Origin: Magnetococcales bacterium
Lineage (GTDB): Bacteria > Pseudomonadota > Magnetococcia > Magnetococcales > Magnetaquicoccaceae
Assembly: GCA_015231755.1 (NCBI GenBank)
Contig: JADGAZ010000001.1
Span: 1-64,000, forward strand
Direction: 5' to 3'
DNA length: 64,000 bases
The first letter of the stretch is position 1; each line of letters opens with the position of its first letter. The notes beneath the pieces were generated by a model. The model worked only from the letters and a program-made list of their open reading frames with translations. It made no database searches and was not told the origin of the DNA. A program made the position numbers and the translations under genes. Shown here piece after piece: positions 49,433 through 63,730 of the stretch.

Positions 49433-50215
49433 ATGGCGCGCAGGATGCTGATCGTCGGCAACTGGAAGATGAATGGGCTGATCGAAACCGCCCAGGATCT
49501 GGCAGAAGGCATTGTGACCGGGCTTTCCGTGCGGGCGGGACGGTCCGTGCGTTGCGAAGTGGTGTTGTGTCCTCCGGCAACGGCTTTGCATGCGGTGAAT
49601 CAACGCCTGGGAGGCTCCATGATCAAACTCGGGGGGCAGGATCTTTCCGAGTTTGAAAGCGGTCCTTGCACCGGCGAAATCTGCGGGCTGATGCTGCGCA
49701 ACGTGGGGTGCTGGTATGTGATCGTGGGGCATTCGGAGCGTCGCTCCGGCTGGGGAGAGGACAACCAACGGGTGGCCCGGAAAATGGCGGCGGCGTTCCG
49801 GGATGGTCTTCAGCCCATCGTCTGTGTGGGGGAAACCCTGGAAGAGCGGGAACAGGGACGCACCTTGGACGTGGTGCAGGCGCAGTTGGAGGCGTTGTTT
49901 CCCTGTTTGCCCGTCCAGTCCAGCAAGCGGCAGTTGCTGGTGGTGGCTTATGAGCCGGTCTGGGCGATCGGGAGTGGTCGCAATGCCCTGCCCGAACAGA
50001 TTCAGGAGGTGCATGGTTTCATCCGTGGCATCCTGCTGGAACGGTTGGGGGGAGATGGTCGCAAAATTCGTATCTTGTATGGTGGATCCGTCAAGGCGGG
50101 CAACGCGGGATCCGTGTTCGCGTTGGAGGATGTGGATGGCGGGTTGATCGGCGGGGCTTCGCTCAAGAGTGTTGATTTTCTCGCCATCATCGATGCGGTT
50201 CCGGAGAAGTTTTGA
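49433..50215 (+). CDS. tpiA: Triosephosphate isomerase
   Basis: A 260-residue TIM barrel enzyme interconverting dihydroxyacetone phosphate and glyceraldehyde 3-phosphate. The catalytic residues are seen: Lys in VGNWKMNGL, His in IVGHSERRS and Glu in VAYEPVWAIGSGR; phosphate loops are ILYGGSV and GGASLKS. It is followed by secG, a common order in proteobacteria. Confidence 0.98.
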   Translation: MARRMLIVGNWKMNGLIETAQDLAEGIVTGLSVRAGRSVRCEVVLCPPATALHAVNQRLGGSMIKLGGQDLSEFESGPCTGEICGLMLRNVGCWYVIVGHSERRSGWGEDNQRVARKMAAAFRDGLQPIVCVGETLEEREQGRTLDVVQAQLEALFPCLPVQSSKRQLLVVAYEPVWAIGSGRNALPEQIQEVHGFIRGILLERLGGDGRKIRILYGGSVKAGNAGSVFALEDVDGGLIGGASLKSVDFLAIIDAVPEKF

Positions 50216-50246
50216 TCGTTGGTTTTTTATTGAGAAGGGTTGCGCA

Positions 50247-50960
50247 ATGACTCTGATTTTGACGGTGGTGCATGTACTGGTCTGCATGGCATTGGTTTTT
50301 GTGGTGCTGTTGCAAAAAGGCAGTGGTGCGGATATGGGAGCCGCGTTCGGTGGCAGTTCTCAAAGCCTGTTCGGTGCCCGGGGTTCGGGAGATTTCTTAA
50401 GCAAGATGACGGCGGGTCTGGCCACGGTGTTCATGATCACCAGTCTGACCTTGGCCTTTTTTTCGACCCGTCCGGGAGTCGAGCGTTCGGTGATGGATGG
50501 TGCTCCGGTCTCTTCGACGGCCAAACCGGTTGCCGGCAAGGATGGCGCGGCGGCCAAGGCCAAGGAGTCGGGCAAGGAGAAGGCCGAGCCTGAATCCGGT
50601 CCTCCCGTCCCCGCCAAGAGCGCTCCCAAGAAACCCGCGGGCGAGGCCGCCCCGGCTGCGGGGGAAGCGGCTGCCCCGGCCAAACCGGTTCCGCCACCGC
50701 CCGCGTCCAGCCAGGATACGGCTGCCGCCAAGAAGCCCGAGCCTGTGAAGGATCCAGCCCCGGCGGTCAAAAAGCCCGAAGGGGAAGCCGCCAAGAAACC
50801 CGAGCCTGTGAAGGATCCAGCCCCGGCGGCCAAAAAGCCCGAAGGGGAAGCCGCCAAGAAGCCCGAAGGGGAAGCCGCCAAGAAGCCTGAGCCTGTGAAG
50901 GATCCGGCCCCGGCGGCCAAAAAGGAGCCGGAAGCTGCCGGTTCCAAGCCGTCTCCCTGA
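50247..50960 (+). CDS. secG: Preprotein translocase subunit SecG with long repeat tail
   Basis: A 237-residue SecG. The first 75 or so residues are normal: two membrane helices (about 2-22 and 50-72) joined by the conserved QKGSGADMGAAFGGSSQSLF. SecG is usually 75-120 residues; here another 150 residues of Ala/Pro/Lys/Glu-rich sequence follow, including repeats of the KKPEPVKDPAPAAKKPEGEA type. By SecG topology the tail should be periplasmic. The start at 50247 is the normal SecG start; the longer frame inside tpiA is rejected. Confidence 0.93.
   Translation: MTLILTVVHVLVCMALVFVVLLQKGSGADMGAAFGGSSQSLFGARGSGDFLSKMTAGLATVFMITSLTLAFFSTRPGVERSVMDGAPVSSTAKPVAGKDGAAAKAKESGKEKAEPESGPPVPAKSAPKKPAGEAAPAAGEAAAPAKPVPPPPASSQDTAAAKKPEPVKDPAPAVKKPEGEAAKKPEPVKDPAPAAKKPEGEAAKKPEGEAAKKPEPVKDPAPAAKKEPEAAGSKPSP
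50730..50930 (+). repeat. Tandem coding repeats in the SecG tail
   Basis: Three units of about 21 codons (KKPEPVKDPAPA followed by A/V-KKPEGEAA), with an extra KKPEGEAA half-unit before the last. The nucleotide sequence is conserved between units, so the expansion is probably recent. Confidence 0.9.
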
Positions 50961-54678: not shown

Positions 54679-55656
54679 TTGAATATCAAACGTCCCCTTT
54701 TGCCCCCCCGCAAACGTTCCAACCGCATTTCCGGGGCTGTGCGCAAGCCGGTTGCCGGCGCGCCCAGGGCGTCTTCCCGTCTGCCGGCTTTGCTGCCGGC
54801 CCTGATGTCGGCCCTGATGTCTGTGTGGACCCGCTTCAAGAAACCGTTGCTGCTGGGCGGTGGTGGATTGCTGGCGGTGGGGGTGATCGGTGGCGTGGTG
54901 ATGATGGTACGCTCTCCTGGAAAAGAGTCCGCCGCCCCCGCCAAGCCCACCAGTCAGGCGCTGTCGTGGCAGCCCTGCCTGAGCAAATGGCCGGATGGCA
55001 CCTTGTATCCGGATTTGTTGCCGGTTCCGGCGGGGGAGTACCGTTTGCACGCCAACTCCCAGGAGATCAAGCCGTTTCTCGCGCCCCATGGGTTGAACAA
55101 GATCCAGATCAAGGAGCCATTCCTGATCGAGAAAAACGAAGTGACCCTCAAGGCGTTCCGTCGTTATGTGGCGGTGGTGGACAAGATGAGCGCCGGTGCC
55201 GACAAGGAGCGACTCAAGGCCCACATCGGTTTGCACTGGAACAAAGACGAGTCCGAAACCACTCCCGTGAAGGGCATCTCCTGGGAAGCGGCCTGGGATT
55301 ACACCGATTGGCTGGGTCGGGAGACCGGGTGCGCCTACGGATTGCCAAGCCGCGAGCAGTGGGGCGCGGCGGTGTTGTTGCTGGATGGCGCCAAGGAGAC
55401 CGCCTCCAAGGCGGGCATCTTGAGCGGCGAATCCTTGAAACGCCTGCTCTGGGGGGTGCGGGAGTGGACGGTCACCCCGTGTGCCGGAGGATACTATCTG
55501 GTCGGAGAGGACGATTTCGTGCCTTTGCCTGAAGTTCGGTCCGCAACGTGCATGCCGGCCATGTTGTCTGTGGCCGGATTTCGCGTGGTGCTCAAGGCTG
55601 CGGCTTCGCAAGACCCGAAAACAGGTAAAACCGCCCCTGGGGCGGCCAAACCCTGA
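54679..55656 (+). CDS. Membrane-anchored SUMF1/FGE-fold protein (system gene 1)
   Basis: A 325-residue protein, TTG start behind GGAG. A basic cytoplasmic tail of about 55 residues precedes one membrane helix (about 56-77, LLLGGGGLLAVGVIGGVVMMV), then a SUMF1/FGE-type domain in the periplasm. Landmarks are VPAGEYRLHA, IEKNEVTLKAFRRYV, GISWEAAWDYTDWLG, GLPSREQWGAA, GVREWTV and AGFRVVL. FGE catalytic cysteines are not seen in place, so it is probably a non-catalytic binding or sensor domain. It is the first gene of an operon with a VWA protein, an ABC ATPase and a permease. Confidence 0.82.
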   Translation: MNIKRPLLPPRKRSNRISGAVRKPVAGAPRASSRLPALLPALMSALMSVWTRFKKPLLLGGGGLLAVGVIGGVVMMVRSPGKESAAPAKPTSQALSWQPCLSKWPDGTLYPDLLPVPAGEYRLHANSQEIKPFLAPHGLNKIQIKEPFLIEKNEVTLKAFRRYVAVVDKMSAGADKERLKAHIGLHWNKDESETTPVKGISWEAAWDYTDWLGRETGCAYGLPSREQWGAAVLLLDGAKETASKAGILSGESLKRLLWGVREWTVTPCAGGYYLVGEDDFVPLPEVRSATCMPAMLSVAGFRVVLKAAASQDPKTGKTAPGAAKP

Positions 55657-55714
55657 TTCGTGGCAGGGCGCGACTCGTGACAACTCTTTGACACTTGATG
55701 GGGATCTTCAATCC

Positions 55715-58372
55715 GTGAACATACGATCCATCTTCCGATTGCTGCCATGGACCTTTTGTTGGTTGGTGATGGCCTCCCCGCTCCCGGCCCAGGCCAAGGA
55801 GAGTCAGCCGGGCAGTTGTGCCACCTATGATTTTTCCGGGTTTTATCAAAACGACAAGTTGCAGTGGGCGGGCGTGGCCCGGGTGATGCGCAACGATACG
55901 CCTTTGTTCGACGGCGCCACCGGAGACAAGAAAACCGGCTCCCTGCCGTTCAATCAGCAGGCGGAAATCCAAGAAGAGAAAAAGGATCGGGTTAAGGTTC
56001 GGGCCTTTCGCTACAAGGATCGCCCGGAAACCACCGGCTGGGTGGCCAAGAACGACCTGTTGTGTCGCAATCTGCCCATCAAGAGCGATTCGGGCCTGGA
56101 GATGAAGTTTTTCATCAAGACCTCCACCGTGGCCCGGGATGAGTCCGGCCAGGAACCCAAGGTGCAACCCTTCCAGGATCCGGACCTCAAGGAGTGCGTG
56201 GGGGGAACGGGTCACTGTCGGGAGGGGGCCTCCCGGTTTCATATGTATTTTGTCTTCGACGAAACCGACAAGGCGGTTTTGCTGGCAGACCGTTTCCGGC
56301 TGGAAGAAGACGGGATTCTGCTCGGTTGGGTGGACAAGGCCAACGGATTCTTGTGGAACAACGCCTTCAGCCTGCGTCCCAAGGAGACTTTGACCTCCCC
56401 GGATCAACAAGGCCCCGGCACCTTGTGTACCTATGAAAACCTGGAGGATGCGGTCAGTCGCAATCCGCAGACCTGTCAGCCGGTGGTGGGGGGCAAGGAG
56501 TGGTTCCGCTCTTCGTTGCGCATTCCGGTTCTGGAGATGGTCAACGCCAAGAATCAGCACGTCTCCCCGGAAAGCCTGGATGGGGAATCCGGACAGCGGC
56601 TGTTCTACAAGGTGGCTTTGGCCCGTCCGGGTCTGGTGGGCCGTCGGGTGAACGAGGAGAAAGTGGCCATCTCCCCGACTTTGGCCAGTCGGATCCTGCC
56701 GGAATACAAGAATCTTTCCGCCAAGAAACGGGTGGACATCTTCTTTTTGCTCGACGCCACCGCCAGCATGGATCCGGTGATCGACGCGGTGCGGGGTACC
56801 CCGGAGCAACGGGGGGTGATTCAGGAGATCATTCACACCCTCAAGAATACCCAGGGGTTCAAAGAGACCCAGTTCCGTTTCGGTTTCCGGGTCTATCGGG
56901 ATCCTTACGCCGACAAACTCTTTCCCAACACCCCCGGCGACGGGGTGGGCGAGGGGTATCCGTTGTCCGATGTGTGCGACATGGATGCCGCCACGCAACA
57001 GCAGGAGTTTGACAAGTTCGCCCAGGCCATCTCTCAGGTCAAGGTGACCCAGGGGGATGTGGAGGATGACTATCAGGAGAACCTGTATGGCGGTCTGGAA
57101 CAGGCCCTCAAAAAGGACATGGTGGCCTGCCCGGACAATCTGAAATTGCTGTTCGTGATCGGCGACAACGGTTACACCCCCAACCGGGGCGACATGGACC
57201 GGCGGGGCAACATCCGTTCGGTGCCCAAATATGCCCATCCGGTCACCCGCGAGGTGTTGGCCAAGCTGATGCGGGGCGGGGCCGAGGCGGGCAGCAAAAC
57301 CAACAACGTGATTCCGTTTTTCATTCAGACCCCGTTCAAGGGACAGCATGTCAAGCATGCCCAGTCCTATCGCATCGCGTATGAGCAGTTCGAGCAGCAG
57401 ACCAAATATCTGTTGGAACAAAGCCTGCCGGCTACCGACGTGAGCGCCGGAGCGGTGAAAGACCATGCGTTCCGTCTGGAAGAAGAAAAGCTGATCAGCC
57501 GTCTGGTGGCCAAGGTGGAAACCTTGAGCAGCAGCGCCTTGATCGATGAGATCATCCTGGATGTGCGGGGTGGCGCCGCCTTGAACGCCGTCATCGAGCG
57601 GTTGAGAAGGGAAAGAATTGACATCCCCGGCGTTTATTGGCACATTCTGCAACGGGGAAGCTGCGGGGAGTTGGGCAAGCAGTGCGAGGATCGGGTCTAC
57701 GATACCACCCGCATCGGCTATGTGGAAGCCGACGACAAGGTGGCCGAGGAACTCTGGATCAGCAGTGGAGCGCTCTCTTCCTGGATTCGCATCCTCAAAG
57801 GATTCGAGGGCTATTTCGACTTGCCGGAGTCTCAACTCAGACGGGCCTTGATCAGCGCCATGATTCTCGGTTTGCAACAGGAGATCCGCCGTCCCCCCAT
57901 CGATGTGGCCGGTGAAACCCCCGCCGAATATGCCCAGCGGCGTGGCGGATTGCCGGTGCGGCGTCACAGTCCGTTGTTGAGTTATCCGGTTCCTTCTCTT
58001 TCCGCCGAGTTCACGGCGCGCAACAAGGATGGCCGACTGGTGGTGCTGGATCAAAACAAGAATCCCATGAAAGACAAGGCGGGCCAGGAGATCATGGCCT
58101 CTCCGGCCTGTGAGTTGCGTCGGCTGGCCTTGTGGGCCATCAAGTCCAAGGAGATGCTGGAGATCATCGAGCGGGATTATGTCCGTCCGGTCTTCAAGAC
58201 CGTGCCCTATCAGCCCCGCCAATGCCCGGACGCCACGGCCAATGGCCGCGCCCTGCCGCAAATCAGCGAGGCCATTCAACAGGTGCCTTTGGGACCGGAC
58301 AAGAACTACCGTTTCGGGCATGAGATCGGTGGCATGCGGGGATATTGGATTCCCCAGGAATTCCTGCCATGA
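55715..58372 (+). CDS. Periplasmic SH3-VWA protein (system gene 2)
   Basis: An 885-residue secreted protein starting at GTG. A signal peptide (LLPWTFCWLVMASPLPAQA) is followed by an SH3-like domain (about residues 55-110, ending TGWVAKNDLLC), a second region of unknown fold, and a von Willebrand A-type domain (about 339-560) opening VDIFFLLDATASMDPV, with a DxTxS form of the MIDAS metal motif. The remaining 320 residues are unrecognised. The stop overlaps the start of the ABC ATPase gene (ATGA). The upstream longer frame overlapping the SUMF1 gene is rejected. The likely place is the periplasm, acting as partner of the transporter. Confidence 0.85.
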   Translation: MNIRSIFRLLPWTFCWLVMASPLPAQAKESQPGSCATYDFSGFYQNDKLQWAGVARVMRNDTPLFDGATGDKKTGSLPFNQQAEIQEEKKDRVKVRAFRYKDRPETTGWVAKNDLLCRNLPIKSDSGLEMKFFIKTSTVARDESGQEPKVQPFQDPDLKECVGGTGHCREGASRFHMYFVFDETDKAVLLADRFRLEEDGILLGWVDKANGFLWNNAFSLRPKETLTSPDQQGPGTLCTYENLEDAVSRNPQTCQPVVGGKEWFRSSLRIPVLEMVNAKNQHVSPESLDGESGQRLFYKVALARPGLVGRRVNEEKVAISPTLASRILPEYKNLSAKKRVDIFFLLDATASMDPVIDAVRGTPEQRGVIQEIIHTLKNTQGFKETQFRFGFRVYRDPYADKLFPNTPGDGVGEGYPLSDVCDMDAATQQQEFDKFAQAISQVKVTQGDVEDDYQENLYGGLEQALKKDMVACPDNLKLLFVIGDNGYTPNRGDMDRRGNIRSVPKYAHPVTREVLAKLMRGGAEAGSKTNNVIPFFIQTPFKGQHVKHAQSYRIAYEQFEQQTKYLLEQSLPATDVSAGAVKDHAFRLEEEKLISRLVAKVETLSSSALIDEIILDVRGGAALNAVIERLRRERIDIPGVYWHILQRGSCGELGKQCEDRVYDTTRIGYVEADDKVAEELWISSGALSSWIRILKGFEGYFDLPESQLRRALISAMILGLQQEIRRPPIDVAGETPAEYAQRRGGLPVRRHSPLLSYPVPSLSAEFTARNKDGRLVVLDQNKNPMKDKAGQEIMASPACELRRLALWAIKSKEMLEIIERDYVRPVFKTVPYQPRQCPDATANGRALPQISEAIQQVPLGPDKNYRFGHEIGGMRGYWIPQEFLP

Positions 58373-59166
58373 CGTGGGGCGTTCAGGTTCGGGCCGCAAC
58401 CGTCGGCTGGGGGGATTTCACCCTACAGGTGGGTGGGCTGAAACTGGACGCCAATACCATTTCCGGTCGTCTGCCGGTGCTGGGACGTAGCGGCAGCGGC
58501 AAAAGTACCTTGTTGTATCTGCTCACCTTTCTTAAAAGACCCACCGAGGGATGGGTGCGGTGGAGTTTTCCGGATGGATCCCAGGCCGCCTGGGGTCCCA
58601 AGGGATTGGACTCCGCATCCTCCACCCTCACCTTGACCGACATCCGTCGCCGCTGTTTTGGTTTCGCCTATCAAAGCAGCACCCTGACCCCCTATCTGCG
58701 GGTGCGGGAGAATCTGCGTTATCCCCTGGAACAAAGGGGTGGGTATTCCGATGCGGAGATGGATCGCAAGGTCCACGCCGCCATGGATCGGGTGTTGCTG
58801 CGGGACAAAAATGGCAGTCGCATCGAAGAGACCACCCCCGAGGAGTTTTTGGAGCGTTATCCCAATCAACTCTCCGGGGGACAGTTTCAGCGGGTCGCCC
58901 TGGCCCAGGCCATGATCCACGATCCGTATGTGCTGTTCGCCGACGAACCCACCGGCAACCTGGACTCCGAAACCCGGCGGGAGGTGATGTCGTTGGTGGA
59001 TCGCTGGCTCACCACCGGTGATCGCATGGTGATCTGGGTCACCCACCATCAATCCGATGCCCTGGATCCCCGGGTCAATCATTGGCTGATGGTGGCCAAC
59101 AATCGTTGTCATCTGCGCCTCAAGGGAGGCGGCAAGCCGCCGGAACCCCAATTCGACCATGGCTGA
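58369..59166 (+). CDS. ABC transporter ATPase, LolD/MacB-type (system gene 3)
   Basis: A 265-residue ABC ATPase. Walker A is GRSGSGKSTLL, the Q-loop is in FAYQSSTLTPYLRV, the signature is NQLSGGQFQRVALAQAM, Walker B is VLFADEPTGNLDSE and the H-loop His is in VTHHQSDAL. The NLDSE and VRENL features match the LolD/FtsE/MacB group, which drive periplasmic events by mechanotransmission. It overlaps the VWA gene by 4 bases and the permease gene by 8. Confidence 0.93.
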   Translation: MTWGVQVRAATVGWGDFTLQVGGLKLDANTISGRLPVLGRSGSGKSTLLYLLTFLKRPTEGWVRWSFPDGSQAAWGPKGLDSASSTLTLTDIRRRCFGFAYQSSTLTPYLRVRENLRYPLEQRGGYSDAEMDRKVHAAMDRVLLRDKNGSRIEETTPEEFLERYPNQLSGGQFQRVALAQAMIHDPYVLFADEPTGNLDSETRREVMSLVDRWLTTGDRMVIWVTHHQSDALDPRVNHWLMVANNRCHLRLKGGGKPPEPQFDHG

Positions 59167-61072
59167 ATCCTCCGATCCCCTCCGTGACGCACCTCCCCTG
59201 CCGGGAGAAAAAATCAAACGACGCTGGACCCCGGTGTGGGTCTCCCTGGGTGCCCGGGCCTATTGGCGTTCCTTTGCCTGCGCCCGCTTCGGCTGTACCG
59301 GCGGAGGTCGGGACTTCGCTTGGTTGACCCTGCTGCTGGCCCTGGTGATCTGCATGGCCTTGCTGCTGGTGGGCACACGGGCCGGCTTGTTGGAACGGTT
59401 CACCGATGCCCTCCTGGGCACCTTGCGGCCCCATGGCGTGCCGGTGTGGGTCACCTCCCATTGGGAGAACCATCAGGGGATCGGTTCGGATCTGCTGGGG
59501 CGTCTCAAGGAGATGGAAAAACGTATCCCCGGTGAATCCTTCGGGGTGACCGCCTATCCTTATCGTCAGGTGGGGGACGCCTCCCCCAAGATCCGTCTGC
59601 CCGGCGCGTCGAGTTGGGATCCCGGCTCCCCCTGGATCGGCTGGGCGGTGTATCCCAACGATCCGTTGTGGAATCTGGAGATTCCCAAGGATTGGGTCGA
59701 GGATCAGAACCAGATGGCCGACGGCTGGATGGGCCTGCCTCTGACCGTGGTGTTGAGTGAATCCCAGTTTGCCGAAGGATTCAATTACGAAGCCTACCGG
59801 GAGGCGGTGCAGCCGATCCTGGTGCAGAAGAAACTGCGGCGTTTGCCGGAGAAACCGCCCCAGGATTCGTTGCGCAACGCCCTGGATACCATCTGGCTGG
59901 AACTGAACATCGGCAACAATCAGGAACTGGTGCCGTTCCGGGTGCGGTGGGTGCATCATCTGCCGGCCATGGAAAAGGTGGCATTTCTGTTTCCTTTGAC
60001 CACCTATCACGCGTTGCTGGCGGCGTTTCATTTTCCGGAGATCCGTTTCGATGTCAAATCGAAAGGGGTGGGCAATCCGGAGGAGCATCGGCGTCTGACC
60101 GCCTCTTCCTATCCCAAGGGTGAAATCGCCTCCCACGCCCAGTGTCTTCAGGAGGAGATGGCCAAGACCGGCCTGACGGGTCTGCCGAAAATTCCCGAAA
60201 ACCGTTGCGCCCGCCCCCAGATTCCCGCCGCCCCCGGAGGGTCGCGTCAATCCGGGGACGATGGATGGGACGTGATCAATCACGATGACAACCACCGTCT
60301 TTGGATGCCCTGTCACCGTCTTCCCATGGACAATCCTCTGCGGGACAGCCTATGTCCCAGCGGACGCCCCAAGGCAGGTCAGCCGATTGTCTACGCCCCC
60401 TGGGACGTGACCGAATCCGGTACCGCTTTTTCCGCGGTGCGGGTCTACATGCCGGATCCCACCCGTTTGAGCCGGGGCATCCGTTCGCTGATGGCGGTGC
60501 GCACCCGGGACGGACGACCGGCGTTCAACATCCACTCCATGTATCAAGACGCCTTGAACCGGTTCAATCTGTTGAGCGATCTGCTCTCCACCATGACACC
60601 GGCTTACGCGTTGACCTTCGGAATCTTTCTGGGCGCCTTGCTGTTGGCCCAGGCGGGTACCCTCATCGGACATCGACGCCACCACTATGGTATTTTGTTG
60701 AGTCGGGGATTCACCTGGACCGGCATTTACGGCAAGCTCATCTGGCAGATGCTGCTGGCCACCCTGACCGCCGGAGCCCTGGCCGTGTTTGGCATGATTC
60801 CGGCCTTGCGTTATTTGTTGGATGACGGGTTCAAGGGGATCATCTCCCGTTATCAGGATCTGTTGCCCCCGGGATACGATTTCGAGGCGTTGCCTTTGCC
60901 CTGGCAGGAGATTGTGATCACTTTGGGGGAGGTCTACGCGGTGGTGGCGGTGGTGACGATTTTCTTGTTGTTCCGTTTGCCGTTGCGGGGGGATACCGCC
61001 CCTTCGGATCTGCTGCACGGGGGTGGCGTGGCCCCGCGGGAACGGGATGGCAATCGCAAGAAGGACTCCTGA
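59159..61072 (+). CDS. MacB/FtsX-type permease with large periplasmic domain (system gene 4)
   Basis: A 637-residue membrane protein. One helix (about residues 53-72), a very long non-hydrophobic region of about 400 residues, then three helices (about 478-500, 520-545 and 590-612) give the four-helix MacB/FtsX topology. The periplasmic part is larger than in FtsX and contains several paired cysteines. In known relatives such permeases do not move substrates across the membrane but transmit ATP-driven motion to periplasmic partners. Family assignment is by topology and neighbours. Confidence 0.85.
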   Translation: MAESSDPLRDAPPLPGEKIKRRWTPVWVSLGARAYWRSFACARFGCTGGGRDFAWLTLLLALVICMALLLVGTRAGLLERFTDALLGTLRPHGVPVWVTSHWENHQGIGSDLLGRLKEMEKRIPGESFGVTAYPYRQVGDASPKIRLPGASSWDPGSPWIGWAVYPNDPLWNLEIPKDWVEDQNQMADGWMGLPLTVVLSESQFAEGFNYEAYREAVQPILVQKKLRRLPEKPPQDSLRNALDTIWLELNIGNNQELVPFRVRWVHHLPAMEKVAFLFPLTTYHALLAAFHFPEIRFDVKSKGVGNPEEHRRLTASSYPKGEIASHAQCLQEEMAKTGLTGLPKIPENRCARPQIPAAPGGSRQSGDDGWDVINHDDNHRLWMPCHRLPMDNPLRDSLCPSGRPKAGQPIVYAPWDVTESGTAFSAVRVYMPDPTRLSRGIRSLMAVRTRDGRPAFNIHSMYQDALNRFNLLSDLLSTMTPAYALTFGIFLGALLLAQAGTLIGHRRHHYGILLSRGFTWTGIYGKLIWQMLLATLTAGALAVFGMIPALRYLLDDGFKGIISRYQDLLPPGYDFEALPLPWQEIVITLGEVYAVVAVVTIFLLFRLPLRGDTAPSDLLHGGGVAPRERDGNRKKDS

Positions 61073-61630: not shown

Positions 61631-63730
61631 TCAATCGTAGTTCAACTCCAGCACCTTCCCCGACAACCCTTCCTGCTGCTGAATGGTATGGGCCATGCGT
61701 TCGGCGGCGTCCCGGGCACGGTAGTTCATGCGTACCGAGTAGAATCGACGGTTTTTCTTCTGGGAGAGATGGACATAGGGATCCCGTCCATTGCCGGAGA
61801 GGGTCTGTTTGAGGCTGTCCGCCCCCTCCTGGGTGGTGAAGGAGCCGATTTGCACCACATACAGCTTGCCGACCGCGCGAAACGATTTTTCGGTGGCGAC
61901 CCCGGTGATGTGTGGCAAGGGGGCGTTTTCCTTGGCTGCCGTTTTGGGAGCAGGCTTGGTGGGTTTTTCCTCGGTTTCCCCTTTGCGCTCTGCCGGGGGG
62001 CGGAGGCCGGATGGAACCGGTTTGGCGGGGAGGTTGGCAGGCTTGCTGGAGAGTTCCTCCTTTTCGCCGCCGTCGCCGGGGGGGATGATGGCGGCGGTGT
62101 GGCGGGCCGCTGATGGCAGGGGCGGTGGTGGTGGAGGGGGCGGTGGGAGTCGCGGGGGATCCCGGGGTTTGGCGGACTCTTCCGCATCGCCAGCCCCATC
62201 CGGGCCGGAGGTCGGACGGGAGGTCTTGTTGGCGGCCAGTGGGAGCGGGGTTGCGGGAGGGGTGGCTTTTTTGGCTTCGGTCCCGGCAGCCGGTTCGCTA
62301 GGCATGTCGACGGGTTGGGTTTCGGGAGCCGGAGCGGGAGCGTTGGCGCTCGCGGTTTTGGCAGTCTGATAGCGCTTGCGAAAGGCTTCGGGATCCGTCA
62401 CCGGCGACCGGTTTCCCGGCAGCGGCGCCTCTGGGGAGGGCTTGGCCAGGGCGGCCAGCCCGGGTTCCGCCCGCTCGGGAATCGGTTGGGGCAAGGGGGT
62501 GTCGGAAGCCCGATTCGGCAAACTCGGCTCCCAGTAGCGTTTTTTGGGAGCCGGGGAGCGGTCGTCGGTTTTTTCCTCCGGGGATTTGGCATCCTTGGGG
62601 GGAGTGGGTTTGTCGGTTTTTTCGGTTTTGTCGGGTTTGGTCCCGGAACCGGGGGTTTCCGGCTGGACAATTCGGATGTAGGCGGAGCCTTCTCCGGAAT
62701 CCCCTTTTTTGGCCACCGGTTTTTCGGACGGTTGCGAGGGAGAATCGAACAGGCCTGCCAGATATCCCGTGCCCGACACAAAAACCACACTGCCGGCCAG
62801 CAGGGCGACCCGGGTTTTGACGGGCAGGGTGGCCAGAAACGATCCCCGTTCCATGGGTTTGCCCATGGTCATGGCCAGCCGCACCATGGAGCGGGTGACC
62901 ACTTTGGCGTTGCGTTGCCGCACCAGGGGCAGGACCCGTCTGAGGAGCAGATCGATCTTGAGTGGAATCCCCAGGGAATAGGCGTAGATTTCCATCCAGC
63001 CGAACCAGGAGACCCGCACCGGCCATCCCATGGACTTGTCCAGTTGAAAGGCCAGATAATCCCAGACCTCCCCCCGGGTCAGGGGGGTCACTTCGCAGCT
63101 GCCGACGATTTTGTCCGCCAGGTTGCGACCGGTTTCCGATTCCAGCAGGGAACGCAGTTCGGGTTGCCCGGACAGCAGCAACTGTACCGGTTTGATGCCC
63201 TCGGAGACGAAGCGGGCCATCATGTCCAGCCACGCCAGGGTTTCGGGGTTGAGCAGATGGGCCTGATCCACCACCAGCACCAGTTTGCGACCCATGGCGA
63301 CCCGTTCTTCCATGGCATCCACCAGATCCTGCAAGGTCAGGGAGGGGTGATCCTCCTGAAAATCCGCCAGGGTCGGGACATCCGGGGCATGGGGATCCAC
63401 CGGGGAGAGGGAACCGGATTCCCCTTTGACCAGTGTGGTAGCGGCGATGAGTTGTTGCAGGAATTCGGAGTCGGGCAGATCGGCGGATTGCACCATCGCC
63501 AGATCCCGGTTGTCCGGGATCATGCCGGGCAGTCGCTTGAGCAGGGAGCTTTTGCCGCTCCCTTCCACGCCTGTGAGGAGGATTACCCCTTCGGCCCGGA
63601 GCAGAGCGGCACGCAGCACACGCCAAATGGCGGCATGGCTTTTGGCGGAGAAAAATTGTGGACGGCGACCCGACTGCCGTTGGTCGGCAGAGCGGGAGGG
63701 CGCGGGAGTCGCTGGTCTGACCGCTTCCAT
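61631..63730 (-). CDS. AAA ATPase with SPOR domain (ExeA/DamX-like)
   Basis: A 699-residue protein. The N-terminal AAA domain (about 25-290) has Walker A in LLTGVEGSGKSSLLKRL and Walker B in LVLVVDQAHLL, as in ExeA/GspA. A membrane helix follows (about 308-328, VALLAGSVVFVSGTGYLAGLF), then about 290 residues of Pro/Lys/Ala-rich linker including a run of ten prolines, and a C-terminal SPOR domain (about 620-695, YVVQIGSFTTQEGADSLKQ) that should bind denuded septal peptidoglycan. It probably couples ATP hydrolysis to division or envelope assembly. Confidence 0.9.
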   Translation of the reverse strand: MEAVRPATPAPSRSADQRQSGRRPQFFSAKSHAAIWRVLRAALLRAEGVILLTGVEGSGKSSLLKRLPGMIPDNRDLAMVQSADLPDSEFLQQLIAATTLVKGESGSLSPVDPHAPDVPTLADFQEDHPSLTLQDLVDAMEERVAMGRKLVLVVDQAHLLNPETLAWLDMMARFVSEGIKPVQLLLSGQPELRSLLESETGRNLADKIVGSCEVTPLTRGEVWDYLAFQLDKSMGWPVRVSWFGWMEIYAYSLGIPLKIDLLLRRVLPLVRQRNAKVVTRSMVRLAMTMGKPMERGSFLATLPVKTRVALLAGSVVFVSGTGYLAGLFDSPSQPSEKPVAKKGDSGEGSAYIRIVQPETPGSGTKPDKTEKTDKPTPPKDAKSPEEKTDDRSPAPKKRYWEPSLPNRASDTPLPQPIPERAEPGLAALAKPSPEAPLPGNRSPVTDPEAFRKRYQTAKTASANAPAPAPETQPVDMPSEPAAGTEAKKATPPATPLPLAANKTSRPTSGPDGAGDAEESAKPRDPPRLPPPPPPPPPLPSAARHTAAIIPPGDGGEKEELSSKPANLPAKPVPSGLRPPAERKGETEEKPTKPAPKTAAKENAPLPHITGVATEKSFRAVGKLYVVQIGSFTTQEGADSLKQTLSGNGRDPYVHLSQKKNRRFYSVRMNYRARDAAERMAHTIQQQEGLSGKVLELNYD

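Follow-up and report, generated by a model that had tools for sequence, protein, structure and literature searches.

A candidate Type VII ABC mechanotransmission module with VWA and SUMF1 partners, conserved in Magnetococcales and separate from type VI secretion

The closest precedent for the gene set described here is the TagQRST-PpkA/PppA pathway of the Pseudomonas aeruginosa H1 type VI secretion system (T6SS), in which TagQ and TagR sense the envelope, TagS and TagT are an inner-membrane ATP-binding cassette (ABC) pair, and PpkA has a periplasmic VWA domain (PMC6657622, PMC3224232, PMC10482370). Also relevant are the Type VII (MacB) ABC systems, the hallmarks of which are four transmembrane (TM) helices, a large periplasmic domain between TM1 and TM2, and an amphipathic helix before TM1 (PMC5985334); in Escherichia coli, four are described, namely MacAB-TolC, LolCDE, FtsEX-EnvC and YbbAP-TesA (PMC12646458). 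We have analyzed a window of 64,000 nucleotides from a Magnetococcales bacterium (contig JADGAZ010000001.1, positions 1 to 64,000), in which a cluster of four genes encodes a SUMF1-fold protein, a secreted VWA protein, an ABC ATPase and an ABC permease (Table 1). Our leading interpretation, to which we give an even chance, is that these proteins work independently of the T6SS as a Type VII ABC mechanotransmission module that senses or remodels the envelope, with the VWA protein as partner of the motor. Our literature searches found no description of the four-gene set. A preceding sequence-only reading of the window knew of no named system that contains it; this holds for the set itself, but the domains of TagR (which we take to have a SUMF1 fold), TagS/TagT and PpkA do provide a precedent.

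The likeness to TagQRST-PpkA/PppA is one of domain content at the superfamily level: the periplasmic SUMF1-type TagR, the TagS/TagT pair and the VWA domain of PpkA all have counterparts, and a related locus in Candidatus Thiomargarita nelsonii (see below) adds a kinase and a PP2C phosphatase. On the other hand, the VWA protein in the window is separate, secreted and free of any kinase domain (Pfam scan), whereas the VWA domain of PpkA is part of a transmembrane Ser/Thr kinase; the SUMF1 protein in the window is membrane-anchored; and no TagQ-like lipoprotein gene was recognized beside the cluster. The T6SS sheath protein VipB/TssC has no match in the host genome (G000), 8 of 10 further carriers are likewise without one, and on the strength of this absence we rejected T6SS membership of the cluster. 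Furthermore, there was no match to the window permease or VWA protein in 34 T6SS loci centred on tagF (a sample without an identified Pseudomonas genome; a search for the PvdO family, meant to reach Pseudomonas, gave no match above its cut-off). By analogy, the cluster may therefore work like TagQRST, but its membership in the T6SS pathway is not supported.

The assignment to Type VII comes from the ATPase and permease. The ATPase matches Pfam ABC_tran (2.8e-22), and its Walker A, Walker B (with catalytic Glu), LSGG and H-switch motifs are all intact. It falls into the LolD/FtsE/DevA class, in keeping with the LolD/MacB type proposed earlier, and scores far below every equivalog cut-off (FtsE, TIGR02673: 101.4 bits versus 264.85; LolD, TIGR02211: 99.5 bits versus 307.75). 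PHROGs gave generic ABC matches, defence-system models gave generic ABC ATPase matches only, and no family library that we scanned names the set. In the case of the permease, Pfam offers a sub-threshold FtsX match alone (0.021), and sequence searches with the permease, VWA and SUMF1 proteins found no match among solved structures. The permease structure model (predicted local distance difference test score, pLDDT, 82.4) adopts the LolCDE/FtsX/MacB fold, with closest similarity to LolC (Z 16.0, 376 residues aligned, root-mean-square deviation (rmsd) 6.7), FtsX (Z 15.6, 260 aligned, rmsd 3.9) and MacB (Z 15.4, 343 aligned, rmsd 6.3). It contains four TM helices (within helices 52–86, 460–505, 520–568 and 582–606), an amphipathic helix (residues 26–40) before TM1, and a periplasmic domain of approximately 370 residues between TM1 and TM2. 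This domain is clearly enlarged, because its equivalent in MacB, residues 306 to 503, comprises only about 200 residues (PMC5985334). Judged by its modelled topology and fold, the permease is a Type VII ABC subunit; the four helices, the unusually large periplasmic region and the mechanotransmission type of ABC system, all anticipated from the letters alone, are borne out by the model and its structural matches.

Like FtsEX-EnvC, the cluster would place a Type VII motor on a dedicated periplasmic partner, but the partner here is a VWA protein with a metal-ion-dependent adhesion site (MIDAS), whereas EnvC is a LytM coiled-coil activator (Pfam finds no LytM domain in the four window proteins); moreover, the periplasmic domain of the permease is much larger, and the ATPase lies under the FtsE cut-off. 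The permease fold, the topology of four TM helices and the ATPase class are shared with LolCDE, MacAB-TolC and YbbAP. However, VWA and SUMF1 partners distinguish the window system from all of these: LolCDE has two permeases, LolC and LolE, where the cluster has one permease gene; the MacB ATPase is fused to its permease, whereas the window genes are separate; and no adaptor (MacA) or outer-membrane channel (TolC) gene is conserved beside the cluster.

The VWA protein carries a signal peptide, and no TM helix was detected in its mature part. A sub-threshold match to VWA_4 (0.0014) is all that Pfam reports, but the structure model (pLDDT 81.3) contains an integrin-I-type VWA domain that superimposes on the integrin CR3 I domain (1ido; Z 17.4, rmsd 2.8, 178 aligned; VIA-align). 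Among 40 sequences with 26–90% identity, D347, T349 and D484 of the MIDAS do not vary, and S351 hardly does. Integrin-type VWA domains bind proteins through a metal ion. The N-terminal beta domains gave weak Foldseek matches (E ~0.01) to SH3-bearing NlpC/P60 proteins; thus, of the secreted SH3-VWA protein envisaged earlier, the signal peptide and VWA domain stand, and the SH3-like part does so less clearly.

The SUMF1 protein matches the Pfam FGE-sulfatase family (4.6e-12). A basic, proline-rich N-terminal part of about 56 amino acids (aa) precedes a single TM helix, in agreement with the membrane anchor that had been proposed, and the SUMF1 domain starts near aa 100. Formylglycine-generating enzymes (FGEs), the catalytic SUMF1 proteins, have two catalytic cysteines close to their C terminus. 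The window protein has four conserved cysteines (Cys100, Cys218, Cys268 and Cys291), of which two do not vary across the alignment, and shares these and a GFR motif with a kinase-SUMF1 protein of Thiomargarita. Just before the GFR motif only one cysteine, C291, is conserved; for this reason catalytic formylglycine formation appears unlikely, even though the Pfam fold itself is present.

A further key observation concerns the Thiomargarita locus (L098:680-14917), which contains, in order, a TerY-like VWA gene, a PP2C gene, a kinase-TM-SUMF1 gene, an AAA gene, a gene for an extra secreted protein (family F3), and the VWA, ATPase and permease genes. In its SUMF1 protein, a cytoplasmic Ser/Thr kinase is joined by a proline-rich linker and a TM helix to a periplasmic SUMF1 domain, which belongs to the subfamily seen in the window. 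Kinases that end in a SUMF1 domain also occur in 8 of the 34 tagF T6SS loci, which come from Thiomargarita's class (L185, L186, L189, L192, L193, L194, L199 and L206), and PHROGs matches the window SUMF1 domain to a kinase-annotated family. The kinase-SUMF1 fusions in the Thiomargarita core locus and the tagF loci favour SUMF1 as an input domain in signalling proteins, which supports a sensory role for this domain in the putative complex; the suggestion that it acts as sensor or adaptor gains from the same fusion. The locus also invites comparison with the TerY-P triad, made up of VWA, PP2C and Ser/Thr kinase domains: all three stand upstream of the core in Thiomargarita but are absent from Magnetococcales loci.

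Table 1. Coordinates of the four genes and of two features within their products
Feature	Position in window	Strand	Basis and details
SUMF1/FGE-fold protein gene	54679-55656	+	Open reading frame (ORF), 325 aa, TTG start
TM helix of SUMF1 protein, single, aa 57-75	54847-54903	+	Hydropathy
VWA protein gene	55715-58372	+	ORF, 885 aa, GTG start
VWA domain, integrin-I-type, aa 339-605	56729-57529	+	Structure model; MIDAS D347, T349, S351, D484
ABC ATPase gene	58369-59166	+	ORF, 265 aa
Type VII ABC permease gene	59159-61072	+	ORF, 637 aa

All four ORFs are present and intact, where the sequence-only reading had put them. The overlaps it gave are correct (4 bases, ATGA, between the VWA and ATPase genes; 8 bases between the ATPase and permease genes), but the gap between the SUMF1 and VWA genes measures 58 bases, not 59. 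In a comparison with one relative (89–94% identity in the last three genes, 70% in the SUMF1 gene), the ratio of nonsynonymous to synonymous differences (pN/pS) was 0.09–0.12 for the VWA, ATPase and permease genes and 0.32 for the SUMF1 gene; since synonymous sites differ much more frequently than nonsynonymous ones, all four genes are under purifying selection as proteins.

Of 61 genomes, 43 contain the permease, and 42 of these are among the 48 that belong to the order Magnetococcales. There the gene order SUMF1-VWA-ATPase-permease is near-invariant: among loci with enough flanking sequence, SUMF1 is in place in 28/28, the ATPase in 25/25 and the permease in 24/25. The VWA and permease genes were present in all 15 Magnetococcales genera that we compared, and the ATPase and SUMF1 genes each in at least 14 of those loci (lower bounds, given a crude gene caller). 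The linkage of the four genes is far beyond chance, and the expectation that they would be found together in other genomes is amply confirmed. No further generally conserved neighbour emerged from the 15 genera; the commonest, a divergently transcribed gene for a SpoU-type methylase (6/15 genera), looks unrelated to the cluster. One Magnetococcales genome (G037, contig 45; L055:8881-12606) also holds a divergent second copy of the permease and ATPase genes, 27–45% identical, adjoined by the C-terminal part of a VWA-type protein.

Searching GTDB representatives with a pattern returned 60 loci, 33 of them in Magnetococcales; the others come from Thiomargarita, Parabeggiatoa, Thioploca, Thiosymbion, Rhodobacteraceae, Pinisolibacter, Rhodospirillaceae and others, and the VWA-ATPase-permease core also occurs in Rhizobiales. 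In the 17 non-Magnetococcales loci with enough downstream sequence, the ATPase gene comes next in 15 and the permease gene follows in 14. The trees of the VWA, ATPase and permease proteins agree closely: the correlation of VWA and permease distances is r = 0.97 among non-Magnetococcales members, part of which will come from species history. The families are sparsely distributed at class level: permease matches occur in 6 of 321 genomes of Thiomargarita's class, but five of these are weak and due to the generic FtsX domain, which leaves Thiomargarita itself as the one clear case; 2 of 385 genomes of Amylibacter's class have the families. On a Sagittula plasmid, the complete set is accompanied by an ExbB-type gene. 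Family F3 lies upstream in 19 of 26 non-Magnetococcales loci; its members (e.g., L101:3317-5509) are of about 400–1000 aa, stand directly upstream of the VWA gene and have no Pfam match, and their C terminus, judged by eye, looks like a divergent Rossmann/VWA-like domain. In two loci from metagenome-assembled genomes of sulfur bacteria or symbionts, a caspase-SUMF1 fusion and a TIR-domain gene are found beside the module (L122:2555-4258 and L115:12146-13642).

We hypothesize that the ATPase and a permease dimer would form an inner-membrane Type VII complex that carries no substrate through the membrane. ATP binding and hydrolysis would open and close this motor and so move the large periplasmic domain of the permease, which would then act on, or be loaded by, the secreted VWA protein; the MIDAS of the latter may use a divalent metal to hold a protein or a glycan as its ligand. 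The single-TM SUMF1 protein would serve as a sensor or coupling subunit for conditions in the periplasm or at the outer surface, and where it is joined by a kinase or another module, information would probably flow inwards, SUMF1 passing its readout to the cytoplasm. The kinase itself is absent from the Magnetococcales locus, and in Thiomargarita it is fused to SUMF1 instead of VWA.

Several observations weigh against this proposal: the Magnetococcales loci have no linked kinase, phosphatase or output gene, and the seven kinases in the host genome are all unlinked to the cluster; outside Magnetococcales, SUMF1 is a looser member than the other three genes, standing upstream in just 11 of the 26 loci with some upstream sequence; and the core of Rhodobacterales lies next to Tad pilus genes, a setting equally compatible with a role in assembly. 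Indeed, TadE/TadG-like, CpaF/TadA-like and CpaB/RcpC-like genes lie beside the core in five Rhodobacterales loci (L101, L103, L109, L112 and L118), and this VWA type, as established for integrins, binds proteins via a metal ion. The module might thus help to assemble or secrete surface structures, which would be Tad-type pili in alphaproteobacteria and other surface proteins in the remaining groups; the MIDAS would bind an exported protein that the motor helps to release or place. We regard this as improbable: although 6 of 10 other carriers do have CpaB/RcpC, it has no match in any of 18 Magnetococcales genomes searched, nor in Thiomargarita, so that the core exists without a Tad pilus, and we rejected the pilus as a general partner in Magnetococcales.

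An output machine resembling FtsEX-EnvC is unlikely too, if worth keeping in mind. Here the motor would switch the VWA protein on and off, the VWA protein would activate or recruit a remodelling enzyme or structural protein at the peptidoglycan or outer surface, and SUMF1 would be a scaffold only. The rank of FtsX among the best structural matches, the dedicated secreted partner whose gene overlaps the motor genes, and the weak resemblance of the partner's N-terminal folds to NlpC/P60 proteins would all be accounted for; however, the set has no conserved hydrolase, LytM or amidase gene as a neighbour, the FtsE model gives 101 bits where 264.85 are needed, and the kinase-SUMF1 fusion points to signalling. 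The earlier suggestion of action on peptidoglycan or surface proteins is not directly supported. We see little prospect for a conventional exporter, or a lipoprotein or lipid extraction system of the MacAB-TolC, LolCDE or YbbAP type: the closest solved structures do include LolCDE and MacB, but the single permease gene, the lack of a conserved MacA or TolC neighbour, the score against the LolD equivalog (99.5 versus 307.75) and a VWA partner foreign to those systems all speak against it. Finally, the domain set equals that of TagR, TagS/TagT and the periplasmic part of PpkA, as would be expected of a relic or part of the T6SS threonine-phosphorylation pathway; this explanation is largely refuted, and has almost no chance of being correct, in view of the missing VipB/TssC, a VWA protein without a kinase domain, and the tagF-centred loci without a match.

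If the mechanotransmission reading is correct, the cluster represents a further kind of Type VII ABC system, with an integrin-like VWA partner, and the envelope-alarm layout known from the T6SS exists apart from that weapon, in a system present almost throughout the order Magnetococcales and seen again in giant sulfur bacteria and Rhodobacterales; the role of the TagS/TagT-type ABC pair would become testable in a simpler setting. More tentatively, and short of an even chance, the module could be a previously undescribed general-purpose envelope transducer, in which a Type VII motor and metal-binding VWA arm accept lineage-specific plug-in modules: SUMF1 alone in Magnetococcales, kinase-SUMF1, PP2C and TerY in Thiomargarita, Tad pilus genes in Rhodobacterales, and the ExbB-type gene on the Sagittula plasmid. 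The TagRST-PpkA alarm of the T6SS would then be one specialized analogue.

Two other genes in the window have unusual architectures. One (50169-50960) encodes a SecG-like protein with a long, repetitive C-terminal tail rich in lysine, proline, alanine and glutamate; in the product of the other (61631-63730, minus strand), an AAA ATPase of the ExeA/PEP-CTERM-associated type is fused, through a long proline-rich linker, to a SPOR peptidoglycan-binding domain.

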